This document shows positions 25,324-29,205 of a stretch of DNA of 64,000 nucleotides, piece after piece (position 1 is the first letter of the stretch; every line of letters begins with the position of its first letter). The stretch comes from Shimia sp. R9_2 (lineage in GTDB: Bacteria > Pseudomonadota > Alphaproteobacteria > Rhodobacterales > Rhodobacteraceae): contig NZ_JAGHRO010000001.1 of NCBI RefSeq assembly GCF_017743735.1, forward strand, positions 682,001-746,000, in the 5' to 3' direction. The notes beneath the pieces were generated by a model. It did not search any database, was not told the origin of the DNA, and worked only from the letters and a program-made list of their open reading frames with translations. The translations under genes and the position numbers were made by a program.

Positions 25324-26496
25324 TTACTGCATATCGGCAAATGCCGTGCGCAGACGGCTTGCTGCCTCTTCCACGCGCGCCCGCGGTGTGGCGATATTGA
25401 ACCGCAGGAAGTTCTCGCCGCCTTTGCCAAAGGTTGGCCCGTGGTTCACTGCGATACGGGCATCTTGTTCCACCCGTTTGGTGAACTCTGCCCGTGACAT
25501 GCCAGTGTCGGTGAAATCCACCCAGCTGAGGTATGTCGCCTCAAGCGGCATGGAGGCCACGCCGGGAATATCTGCAATTGCCGCATCCAGAATTTTCCGG
25601 TTGCCGTCCAGATAGGTGATCAGATCATCTACCCAGGCCGCACCATCCGGCGAATAGGCCGCTTCCGCCATAAACAAGCCAAAGCTGTTGGGCGATAGCC
25701 CAAGCGCGGCCATGCGGGTCGCAAACTTGGCGCGCAGCGCCGGGTCGGGAATGATCACATTGCCGGAATGGCTGCCCGCGATGTTGAACGTCTTGGTGGT
25801 GGCGGTCATCATCACCAACCGGTCCAGAATGCTCTCATCCACGTTGGTCATCGGGATATGGGTGTGCCCCGGGTAGACCAGATCATGGTGGATTTCATCA
25901 GACACCAGAATGAGATCGTGGCGTTTGCAGAAATCTGCCACGCCCTGCAGCTCTTCACGGGTCCAGACACGGCCACCGGGATTATGCGGCGAGCAAAGGA
26001 TGAACATGGTTTCATGCCCCTGCATCTGCGCATCCCAGGCTGCAAAATCCATCTCATAGCGCCCCTCGTTCAGCGCCAGCGGGCACTCCACAACCTCGCG
26101 GCCTGCCGACGCAATGACCCGTGCAAAGGCGTGATAGACCGGTGTGGTTAACACAACGCCATCGCCCGGTTTGGTAAAGCTGTCCACACACATGCCGGTG
26201 CCGTTCACCAGCCCATGGGTGGTGAAGACCGAGGCCGGGTCCACCTCCCAGCCATGCCGGGTCTTCATCCACCAACAGATCGCTTCGTTGTACGCAGTCT
26301 CATCGCCGTAATAGCCATAGATGCCCTGCGCCTGCATTTTGGCAATTGCGTCAGCTACACATTGCGGCGGGCGGAAATCCATATCCGCAACCCACATGGC
26401 AATCCCGTCATCGGCTGGCACGCCATAGATTTGCTCCATCATGTCCCATTTCACAGAGTGGGTGCCAAAACGGTCGATGATTTCGTCAAAACTCAT
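25324..26496 (-). CDS. MalY/PatB family PLP-dependent C-S lyase
   Basis: A fold-type I PLP enzyme of 390 residues in the MalY/PatB group, which cleaves cystathionine or related thioethers to a thiol, pyruvate and ammonia. Family marks are IAMWVADMDFRPP at the N terminus, YTHGLVNGTG-type active-site context, CSPHNPGGRVWTREEL, SDEIHHDLVYPG, and the PLP lysine in TATTKTFNIAGSH. The ATG at 26496 follows AAAGGACG, so the upstream ATG-like start at 26529 is rejected. Its role in methionine or sulfur metabolism is inferred. Confidence 0.9.
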   Translation of the reverse strand: MSFDEIIDRFGTHSVKWDMMEQIYGVPADDGIAMWVADMDFRPPQCVADAIAKMQAQGIYGYYGDETAYNEAICWWMKTRHGWEVDPASVFTTHGLVNGTGMCVDSFTKPGDGVVLTTPVYHAFARVIASAGREVVECPLALNEGRYEMDFAAWDAQMQGHETMFILCSPHNPGGRVWTREELQGVADFCKRHDLILVSDEIHHDLVYPGHTHIPMTNVDESILDRLVMMTATTKTFNIAGSHSGNVIIPDPALRAKFATRMAALGLSPNSFGLFMAEAAYSPDGAAWVDDLITYLDGNRKILDAAIADIPGVASMPLEATYLSWVDFTDTGMSRAEFTKRVEQDARIAVNHGPTFGKGGENFLRFNIATPRARVEEAASRLRTAFADMQ

Positions 26497-26758
26497 GTGC
26501 TGCGTCCTTTGCTTAACATCGCAAGGCACGCTAGCGAAAAGCGGGCGCGGTGCAACCCATCTTGCAAAAAACCCACATCTGCGCCCTTTGGATTTGAGGA
26601 TATTTTGTCTGATGTCGCTCTAGTGACTTGTAATTGCGCATCTATTGGGGTGGTGGCGGGCAGTCTGTGTCAGAAAAGCCGCTTTACCCGGTCGTTGGGC
26701 GCTATTGCACAGAGCCTAACCCGTTGCGCGCAGGGCGCGTCTGTCCTAGATGAGGGCC

Positions 26759-27271
26759 ATGATTAAGCCCATTCTCATCCACCCCGATCCGCGCCTTAAA
26801 AAACTCTGCGCGCCCGTCGCCGATCTGAGCGACGATCTGCGCACATTGGCCGAAGACATGCTGGAAACCATGTATGACGCGCCGGGCATCGGCCTGGCCG
26901 CGCCGCAGGTTGGCGTGCTGGAGCGTCTGATCGTGATGGATTGCATCAAAGAAGGCGAACCGGAACCGGTAGTGATGTTCAATCCTGAGGTGCTGTCCAG
27001 CTCTGAGGATCAGAGCGTCTATGAGGAGGGCTGCCTGTCTATCCCGGAGCAGTTTGCCGAAGTCACCCGCCCCGCCGAAGTGCGGGTGGGCTGGATCGAT
27101 ATGGATGGCAATCCGCAGGAGAAAGATTTCGATGGCCTTTGGGCGACCTGCGTGCAGCATGAGATCGACCACCTCAACGGCAAGCTCTTCATCGACTATC
27201 TCGGCCCGATGAAACGCCAGATGATGACCCGCAAATCCCAAAAGCTGAAGCGCGAGCTGGCACGCGGATGA
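26759..27271 (+). CDS. def: Peptide deformylase (first of three, intact)
   Basis: Removes the formyl group from N-terminal formylmethionine of new proteins. It has 170 residues. All three motifs are intact: GIGLAAPQ (43-50), EEGCLS with metal ligand Cys92, and QHEIDHLNG with His134, Glu135 and His138. The ATG at 26759 follows GAGGG, and an ATG nine bases upstream lacks a site. Its last codons overlap the second deformylase gene by four bases (ATGA), so the three deformylases and fmt form one unit. Confidence 0.95.
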   Translation: MIKPILIHPDPRLKKLCAPVADLSDDLRTLAEDMLETMYDAPGIGLAAPQVGVLERLIVMDCIKEGEPEPVVMFNPEVLSSSEDQSVYEEGCLSIPEQFAEVTRPAEVRVGWIDMDGNPQEKDFDGLWATCVQHEIDHLNGKLFIDYLGPMKRQMMTRKSQKLKRELARG

Positions 27272-27771
27272 GCATTCTGCCGCTGGTCTTCTATCCCGAC
27301 TTGAGGCTGGCGCAGCCCTGCGCTCCGGTCAAAGATCCGGTCACTGACGAAGACCTGGGCCCCCTGATCGCAGATATGTTTGATACCATGTATGCCGCTC
27401 CCGGTCGTGGTTTGGCCGGGCCACAGGTGGGTGTGATGAAACGTGTCTTTGTGATGGATTGCACCTGGAAAGACGGCGCAGGCACGCCAATGGCATTTCT
27501 CAATCCGGAGATCATCGCGCAGAGCGAGGGTGAGGATACGCTTGATGAAGGCTGCCTCTCGATCCCTGATCTGATGGTGCCTGTTGTCCGCCCCACAGAG
27601 ATCACAGTGCGGTGGATGGATGAGCTTGGCGGCACGCATGAGCGTGATTTTGACGGCTTTGAAGCCCGCTGCATTCAGCACGAAATGGATCATCTTGACG
27701 GCCGCGTGACGCTTGATCACCTATCCGAGCCCGCACGCGCCGAGATTTTGCAAGGATATACCGCCCCATGA
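27268..27771 (+). CDS. def: Peptide deformylase (second of three)
   Basis: A second deformylase of 167 residues. It keeps GRGLAGPQ (46-53), EGCLS with Cys96, and QHEMDHLDG with His138, Glu139 and His142, so it should be active. The first motif has Arg and Gly in place of the usual hydrophobic residue and Ala. It overlaps the genes on both sides by four bases. Sequence differences from the first copy, mainly in its middle, suggest an old duplication with a different substrate preference rather than a recent one. Confidence 0.92.
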   Translation: MSILPLVFYPDLRLAQPCAPVKDPVTDEDLGPLIADMFDTMYAAPGRGLAGPQVGVMKRVFVMDCTWKDGAGTPMAFLNPEIIAQSEGEDTLDEGCLSIPDLMVPVVRPTEITVRWMDELGGTHERDFDGFEARCIQHEMDHLDGRVTLDHLSEPARAEILQGYTAP

Positions 27772-28262
27772 CCGTTCGCCCCTGCCTGCCTTGGCCTGAC
27801 AAACGCCTGCGCACCGTTTCCGAACCTGTGGCAGAGATCACCGATGAAGTTCGTCAGGTCTGGGATGATCTGATTGACACCATGTACGCCATGCCCGGCG
27901 TTGGCATGGGGGCCAACCAGATTGGCGTGCTCAAGCGCCTGATCGTGGTCGACGCCACCGAAGAGGGCAACCAGCCCATCCGCATGGCCAACCCTGAAAT
28001 CCTGCACGCCTCGGTTCAGCCGCGCGAGCATGAAGAGGCGAGCCCCAACCTCGTGGGTGTTTCTGCCAAAATCTCCCGCCCCCGCGCGGTGACCGTGCGC
28101 TATATGGATGAGTCTGGTGAGACCGTTGAGAAAGACTTTGTTGGCCTCTGGGCCACCTCCGTGCAGCACCAGATCGACCACATCAACGGCAAAATGTACT
28201 TTGATCATCTCAGCAAAACCAAACGCGCGATGCTGATCAAAAAAGCCCAGAAACGCCGCTGA
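27768..28262 (+). CDS. Peptide deformylase-like protein with altered active site
   Basis: A 164-residue protein aligned end to end with the first deformylase of the cluster. The first motif reads GVGMGANQ. The EGCLS motif is replaced by EEASPNL, so the metal ligand Cys92 is Ser92. HEIDH becomes HQIDH, so the catalytic Glu135 is Gln135. The two metal-binding histidines remain. Classical deformylase activity is therefore unlikely. It may be a regulatory or partner subunit, or have another reaction (inference). It is coupled by a four-base overlap to the previous gene and precedes fmt by 37 bases. Confidence 0.9.
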
Positions 28263-28299: not shown

Positions 28300-29205
28300 A
28301 TGCGCATTCTTTTCATGGGAACCCCCGATTTCTCAGTTTCCGTGCTTGATGCTCTGGTTGACGCGGGCCACGAGATTGCCGCCGTTTTCTGCCAACCACC
28401 GCGCCCGGCTGGACGCGGTAAGAAAGACCGCCCAACCCCGGTCCATGCCCGCGCACTGGAACTGGGTCTTGAGGTGCACCATCCCAAAAGCCTGCGCACC
28501 GATGAGGTGCAACAGACCATCCGCGATCTGAAGGCGGATGTGGGGGTTGTGGTGGCCTACGGGCTGCTTCTGCCCCAGGCGGTGCTCGACGCTCCGACGC
28601 AGGGTTGTCTGAACATCCACGCCAGCCTTCTGCCACGTTGGCGCGGCGCTGCCCCCATCCACCGCGCGATCATGGCGGGAGATGCAGAAACGGGTGTGTG
28701 CATCATGCAAATGGATGCGGGGCTGGACACTGGCCCGGTTCTGCTGCGTCGTGACCTCACCATTGGCACCGAGGAAACCACCGCAGAGCTGCATGACCGC
28801 CTCGCGGTCTTGGGCTCCGGCGCCATTGTGGACACTCTTGCCGCATTACCCGAACTGACAGCCACGCCACAGCCAGAAGAAGGGGTCACTTACGCCGAAA
28901 AGATCGACAAATCCGAAGCGCGCATCGACTGGTCCGCCCCGGCGGTTGAGGTGGACCGAAAAATCCGCGGTCTCTCCCCATTCCCCGGTGCATGGACAGA
29001 GATTGAAGGCCAACGGGTGAAACTCCTCGCCTCCCGCCTTACAGAGGGGCAGGGCGACGCTGGCACTTTACTGGATGATGCGCTCACCGTGGCCTGCGGC
29101 GACGGCGCCGTGCAACTCCTGCGCCTGCAACGCGCCGGCAAAGGCGCGCAGGATGCCGACGTGTTTCTCCGAGGCTTCCAGCTCAGCAAGGGCGATGTGA
29201 TCTAG
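28300..29205 (+). CDS. fmt: Methionyl-tRNA formyltransferase
   Basis: Formylates methionyl initiator tRNA with 10-formyltetrahydrofolate. It has 301 residues. The N terminus [13 protein letters not shown], the folate-binding motif [21 protein letters not shown] with conserved Asn and His, [11 protein letters not shown], and the C-terminal OB-like domain (about 205-301) are all present. It is the natural partner of deformylase and lies directly after three deformylase genes. AGGAGC precedes the ATG at 28300. Confidence 0.97.

Follow-up and report, generated by a model that had tools for sequence, protein, structure and literature searches.

Three consecutive peptide deformylase (PDF) genes lie in a stretch of 64,000 nucleotides from Shimia sp. 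R9_2 (contig NZ_JAGHRO010000001.1, positions 682,001 to 746,000 of the forward strand; hereafter the window), and the protein encoded by the third, Def3, very probably lacks ordinary deformylase activity, judging from its sequence. Def3 has lost a catalytic metal ligand and the general base, with the same replacements in every copy that we read; as an old paralogue of the deformylase of Rhodobacteraceae, it has been retained for very long. The three genes and the altered motifs are:

26759..27271, + strand: Def1, canonical peptide deformylase, 170 amino acids (PF01327, 172.6 bits; TIGR00079, 169.9 bits; EGCLS and QHEIDH intact)
27268..27771, + strand: Def2, catalytic residues present, basic C-terminal helix absent (PF01327, 165.4 bits)
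27768..28262, + strand: Def3, putative pseudo-deformylase, 164 amino acids (PF01327, 134.9 bits; AlphaFold2 model)
27897..27920, + strand: Def3 motif I, GVGMGANQ, with Gln51 (E. coli Gln50) retained in all 301 distinct copies
28035..28052, + strand: Def3 motif II, EASPNL replacing EGCLSI, Cys90 to Ser and Leu91 to Pro (each 301 of 301)
28167..28181, + strand: Def3 motif III, HQIDH replacing HEIDH, Glu133 to Gln (301 of 301; both His in 301 of 301)

All three proteins exceed the PF01327 gathering cut-off of 22.8 bits, and the window's own genome contains exactly these three PF01327 genes. For Def1, an alternative ATG start is possible at 26750.

Active-site replacements in Def3

Residue numbers here follow E. 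coli PDF with the initial Met left uncounted; positions 90, 91, 129 and 133 are residues 92, 93, 131 and 135 of Def3. A preliminary description of the window had stated that Cys92 and Glu135 are changed to Ser92 and Gln135 with both histidines kept, and that the second copy has all catalytic residues. Our alignment of the three window proteins bore this out: Ser92 and Gln135 of Def3 stand opposite Cys92 and Glu135 of Def1, His134 and His138 are kept, and Cys, His-Glu-x-x-His and Gln are all present in Def2. Beyond that description, we found that the Leu following the Cys is replaced by Pro and that the pocket residue Cys129 is replaced by Ser.

For a wider view we used an order sample of 244 genomes drawn evenly from 100 genera, all belonging to the window's family (f1), which we take to be Rhodobacteraceae in the broad GTDB sense, its members being filed by the lineage under Roseobacteraceae and Paracoccaceae. 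We searched the sample using a profile built from 28 Def3 proteins and read it gene by gene to counter the bias of our named loci, which were taken as the 80 most similar to the query among 174 relatives (81 loci with the window) and whose constancy leans towards Def3. All 237 order-sample genomes with Def3 had Gln50, Glu88, Ser90, Pro91, His132, Gln133 and His136, and 236 of them had Ser at position 129. Fixation of Ser92 and Gln135 in a clade, which the preliminary description had proposed to look for, was thus observed together with that of Pro, and no copy among those read had regained the Cys or the Glu. The sole Def3 of the 237 with Cys129 was that of locus L309 (genome G630), although Ser90, Pro91 and Gln133 were present.

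Combining the order sample, the named loci and the window's genus gave 302 Def1, 183 Def2 and 301 Def3 distinct full-length proteins, from which a cut Def3 (L092, 94 amino acids) and a cut Def1 (L375, 130 amino acids) were excluded. Ser90, Pro91 and Gln133 were found in all 301 Def3 and Ser129 in 300, and an earlier count of 158 distinct Def3 had given the same pattern. Of the residues expected in an active deformylase (EC 3.5.1.88), the motif II Cys and the motif III Glu were absent and the motif I Gln50 was present (301/301 each); Asp135, Glu88 and both His were invariant as well (301/301). In contrast, the catalytic residues of Def1 were canonical in 302 of 302 proteins, and Def3's Ser, Pro and Gln occurred in 0 of 302. 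Twenty-eight alignment columns were fixed at 97% or above in both Def1 and Def3, and five of them differ, namely E41 (two positions ahead of motif I), C90, L91, C129 and E133. Where both are fixed, Def1 and Def3 have diverged only in or adjoining the catalytic centre.

The classes were set by profiles from the 81-locus sets, where Def3 had been chosen by its QHQxDH motif; every Def3 outscored both other class profiles by at least 28 bits, so that one changed residue would not shift a copy to another class. We considered an alignment slip at motif II and rejected it, since the distance from E(A/G)SP to QHQ is identical in all 81 copies and a profile alignment to the P. aeruginosa PDF (1n5n) is gap-free across both motifs. 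Chance decay of one strain's copy was rejected, as every one of the 237 order genomes with the gene has the identical Ser, Pro and Gln. Def3 motif I shows slight variation, with Gly replacing Ala47 in 61 of the 158 proteins of the earlier count, and position 44 is Val in 267 and Tyr in 28 of the 301. Gly89 is retained in the divergent Def3 of L237 (G596) and of L072, whose EGSP looks like a halfway form between EGCL and EASP.

In E. coli PDF, Cys90, His132 and His136 hold the metal, Glu133 acts as the base, and Gln50 together with the main-chain NH of Leu91 holds the formyl oxygen. Passages of the literature name Cys90 as metal ligand, and those of a docking paper mention hydrogen bonding to the side chain of Gln50 and to the backbone of Leu91. 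The metal ligand, the base and the oxyanion hold would be struck by Ser90, Gln133 and Pro91, respectively, and ordinary deformylase activity is thus very probably lost.

Distribution, age and constraint of Def3

Def3 was found in 237 of the 244 order-sample genomes (best match at least 202.9 bits) and in 25 of 25 genomes of the window's genus, with the copy of G020 split in two at contig ends. The closest named relatives are Shimia, whose Def3 is 96% identical. Def1 was read beside Def3 in 234 of the 237 genomes; in the other three none lay in the fetched stretch, and these genomes have two or three deformylase matches each. Five genomes of the same family in a class sample of 385 genomes scored at least 269 bits with the Def3 profile, and none of the 380 class genomes outside the family, some of them incomplete or small, gave a Def3-level match (best 173.4 bits; 20 without a match). 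Origin from another sampled alphaproteobacterial family was rejected, since none scored above 173.4 bits. Spread by plasmids was rejected as well: among 72,556 plasmid records, a single one, a 1.58 Mb Pseudorhodobacter record, matched Def3 at 60% identity or above. These profile searches replaced a short QHQxDH DNA pattern that was unspecific over the class (102 of 385 genomes, and a second, unexamined site in the window's genome).

To place Def3 among its relatives we made a quick IQ-TREE tree of 102 rows, with one best profile match per genome from 25 loci as the outgroup. The Rhodobacteraceae copies clustered (SH-aLRT 89), and Def3 formed one clade (100) beside Def1 and Def2 (86). Support is low at many of the inner branches of this tree, and several Def2 rows sit on long branches. 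Def3 was still one clade (SH-aLRT 99) after positions 41, 89-92, 129 and 133 had been removed. Def1 was not one clade, as Def2 joined the Def1 of G596. In the genomes without Def3, the stretch read shows Def1 only, except for G628 with Def1 and Def2. The Def1 of three of them (G540, G624 and G509) branches apart from the main Def1 group. That of G465, G608 and G629 (genomes of 2.6-2.7 Mb) and of G628 lies inside the main group, which suggests that Def3 was lost there later.

The Def3 open reading frame begins with ATG, has zero internal stops and overlaps Def2 by four bases (ATGA at 27768-27771, the ATG of Def3 and the TGA of Def2), in agreement with the preliminary description; the overlap of Def1 and Def2 at 27268-27271 is of the same ATGA type. 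From the coupling and the lack of a frameshift that description had deduced purifying selection, an argument that is too weak by itself, and the conclusion held with a median ratio of nonsynonymous to synonymous substitutions (dN/dS) of 0.27 in the order sample. We calculated dN/dS by the Nei-Gojobori method for 27,261 pairs of 234 order genomes and counted pairs with dS of 0.1-1.5. The medians, which are rough with dS near saturation, were 0.203 for Def1 (17,802 pairs), 0.265 for Def3 (16,036) and 0.417 for Def2 (4,403), and for the same 3,571 pairs 0.234, 0.299 and 0.436, respectively. The mean protein difference was 28.7% for Def1 and 33.4% for Def3. The constraint on Def3 is clear; it is somewhat weaker than that on Def1 and much stronger than that on Def2. 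The uniform loss of active-site residues together with purifying selection supports the pseudoenzyme that the preliminary description had put forward as a possibility.

The C-terminal helix, Def2 and the def-fmt string

An AlphaFold2 model of Def3 was made from a 28-row alignment (mean pLDDT 89.5, pTM 0.84). Its 20 best Foldseek matches in the PDB are all deformylases (TM 0.90-0.94 on the query), and it superposes on E. coli PDF 2w3t with a TM of 0.93 and an rmsd of 1.4 Å. The structure prediction that had been proposed earlier thus gave a PDF fold; the model has no metal, and metal binding by the two His lies beyond it. The model ends in a helix of residues 150-163:

28215..28256, + strand: Def3 C-terminal helix, residues 150-163, basic, matching in the model the ribosome-docking helix of E. 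coli PDF (Lys/Arg at 150, 157 and 160 in 301 of 301 copies)

According to passages of a 2025 survey (PMC12690207), E. coli PDF docks on uL22 and 23S rRNA by L149, K150, R153, K157, K160 and R163, and the docking site overlaps that of methionine aminopeptidase (MAP) according to a passage of PMC8712518. Positions 150, 157 and 160 were all basic in 302 of 302 Def1, 301 of 301 Def3 and 0 of 183 Def2. Position 153 was Met in most Def1 (260/302) and Def3 (276/301). The mean net charge after the DHL motif in the named set was +7.7 for Def1 (n=80), -1.8 for Def2 (n=42) and +6.8 for Def3 (n=81). Def3 thus appears to be dead but dockable, and Def2 looks catalytic but would not be dockable in that way. 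The kept basic helix favours a role of Def3 at the tunnel exit, where Def1 would be met.

Def2 is optional: it was found in 148 of the 234 order genomes in which Def1 and Def3 were read, with 86 lacking it, and in 41 of the 80 Def1-bearing loci of the named set and the window. It evolves faster than Def1 and Def3 and has Arg for the Ile44 of E. coli (GRGLA replacing GIGLA) in 182 of 183 distinct copies. A catalytic residue is broken in five of the 183 (L246, L201, L039, L388 and L285), each in a different way (C90G; E133K; E133L; C90A+H132Q+E133V; H132Q+E133Q+H136I), and two further Def2 matches (G419 and G639) have an in-frame TGA, apparently decay in progress. Def2 may act as a deformylase off the ribosome, with another specificity or inhibitor tolerance.

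Among the 81 loci the gene order was Def1-Def2-Def3 in 41 and Def1-Def3 in 39; Def1 lay beside Def3 in 80, and in the remaining one the contig ends there. The def string is flanked in the window by the following genes:

28300..29205, + strand: fmt, methionyl-tRNA formyltransferase, the next gene after Def3 (TIGR00460, 292.9 bits; cut-off 201.5)
25324-26529, - strand: neighbour upstream of the def string, putatively a MalY/PatB-type aminotransferase, judging from its sequence

On the same strand, fmt was found 3' of Def3 in 74 of 80 named and 85 of 90 other loci. In the other six named loci, five of Salipiger and one of Thalassovita (L041, L042, L043, L052, L056 and L080), it was not found on the same strand within about 4 kb downstream of Def3, and the def string can therefore separate from fmt.

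Candidate roles of Def3 and comparison with known deformylases

The loss of activity is strongly supported; for the role of Def3 we infer a place at the ribosome, and the reading that we favour, tentatively, is a selected pseudo-deformylase docked at the tunnel exit that tunes formyl removal. Def3 would be translated from one mRNA together with Def1, Def2 and usually Fmt, and would dock by its C-terminal helix at uL22, next to the tunnel exit, a place where Def1 and MAP are in competition. There it would compete with Def1, shield chains from it or assist it, and may also compete with MAP; alternatively, it might hold formyl-Met N-termini uncut. The result would be a tuned speed of formyl removal and a choice of the chains that lose the formyl group. 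Def2 would be the complement of Def3, with the catalytic residues retained and the docking helix lost. Whether the three form one tunnel-exit system, with Def1 active and docked, Def2 active, undocked and optional, and Def3 dead and docked, is more doubtful. If so, Def3 would read or shield formyl-Met or block the site, formyl removal would be regulated rather than constitutive, and formyl-Met would be retained on chosen proteins.

Several observations weigh against a docked, selected pseudo-deformylase. All 301 copies retain the two metal-ligand His, which is odd for a simply empty site, and the S1' pocket is altered (C129S; Val or Tyr at position 44), so that binding of formyl-Met is not assured. 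Position 153 is basic in only 10 of 301 Def3 and 0 of 302 Def1, and there is no general Arg153; position 163, basic in 302 of 302 Def1, is so in only 80 of 301 Def3, with a gap in 125; at position 149 Val or Thr predominates, and the Def3 helix is shorter. A basic tail would fit any RNA binding, and ribosome docking of Def3 is plausible. Seven order-sample genomes of five genera reach 140 to 164 bits and have no Def3. The constraint on Def3 is weaker than that on Def1 in the even sample (0.265 against 0.203); the closer values of the named set (Def1 0.155, Def3 0.173, Def2 0.348) come from loci chosen by Def3 similarity and are biased towards Def3.

Def3 could also be a non-catalytic partner of Def1 or Def2, forming a heteromer in which the active enzyme is stabilised or placed under allosteric control, the active-site changes merely freeing it from making product. 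The strict gene order and the four-base overlaps, which fit stoichiometric synthesis, agree with such a partner. However, Def2 is missing from too many order genomes to be obligate (148 of 234 have it), and the fixed differences between Def1 and Def3 lie in or beside the active centre and form no surface patch. A partner role is rather unlikely.

An enzyme of another kind, with a His-His-Ser(-Gln) site holding a different metal or none and catalysing another reaction, seems similarly improbable, and so does its variant, a slow deformylase acting in particular circumstances, oxidative stress for example. An oxidative-stress-type role has been proposed for type 3 deformylases in general, and motif-altered T. 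brucei PDFs are cited as active (passages of PMC12690207). The invariance of the three replacements, with both His, Asp135, Gln50 and Glu88 kept, would be expected of a re-tooled site, and the loss of both active-site Cys in all but one copy would spare thiol oxidation. Against this, Pro91 abolishes the backbone NH for the oxyanion, and the five fixed differences include no new acid or base residue.

It is very unlikely that Def3 is still an active deformylase with unusual ligands. The fold, Gln50 and the two His are retained, and Def3 passes the TIGR00079 equivalog cut-off (128.9 against 103.95 bits), so that automatic annotation would name it peptide deformylase; metal ligand and general base are, however, lost together, along with the Leu91Pro change, and Def1 accompanies Def3 in 80 of 81 loci and 234 of 237 order genomes. 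Def3 thus illustrates how automatic annotation would name as an enzyme a protein that is very probably not one. A decaying duplicate kept by the operon deserves hardly any credence: the catalytic residues are gone and dN/dS is somewhat higher than for Def1, but at 0.27 it is low, Def3 is present in 237 of 244 genomes, and its constancy, as opposed to the varied changes of decaying Def2 copies, speaks strongly against decay. A sponge for natural inhibitors has a low probability, as actinonin-type inhibitors bind via the metal, and Def3 is probably unable to hold a metal in that manner.

Deformylation is regarded as an automatic, essential step and as an antibiotic target. That nearly all sampled members of a large bacterial family keep a dead paralogue suggests regulated deformylation or a second ribosomal job of the deformylase scaffold. 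Rhodobacterales deformylase gene clusters are already in print, as are inactive accessory deformylases elsewhere, and the rationale of the clusters is called elusive in passages of the 2025 survey (PMC12690207), for which Def3 offers a specific, testable reason. A cluster member uniformly devoid of catalytic residues is not stated in its abstract, passages and sections 7, 12 and 16, and no fixed dead paralogue or deformylase pseudoenzyme like Def3 was found in the open-access literature among the matches listed. In the main text of an R. sphaeroides Tn-seq paper (PMC5513736), a source on gene essentiality, deformylase is unmentioned, and passages of an R. sphaeroides duplication paper (PMC3024229) name deformylases for B. 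subtilis only.

With type 1 PDF (E. coli Def, PF01327) Def3 shares the fold, the motif I Gln, both metal His, Glu88 and the basic C-terminal helix, and it differs in the replacement of Cys90, Leu91 and Glu133 in 301 of 301 copies and of Cys129 in 300. Comparison with other accessory deformylases follows passages of PMC12690207. Like the inactive type 3 deformylases of S. aureus and S. pneumoniae, Def3 is a motif-altered accessory beside an active copy. As far as the type 3 description alone sets them apart, type 3 is altered in motifs I and II and Def3 in II and III; unlike type 3, Def3 groups with Rhodobacteraceae deformylases, sits in a def-fmt string and is near family-wide. The accessory Def2 of V. 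cholerae and integron deformylases differ from the housekeeping copy in docking residues, with motifs and activity intact. Def3 represents the reverse situation, and the Def2 of the window resembles them more.
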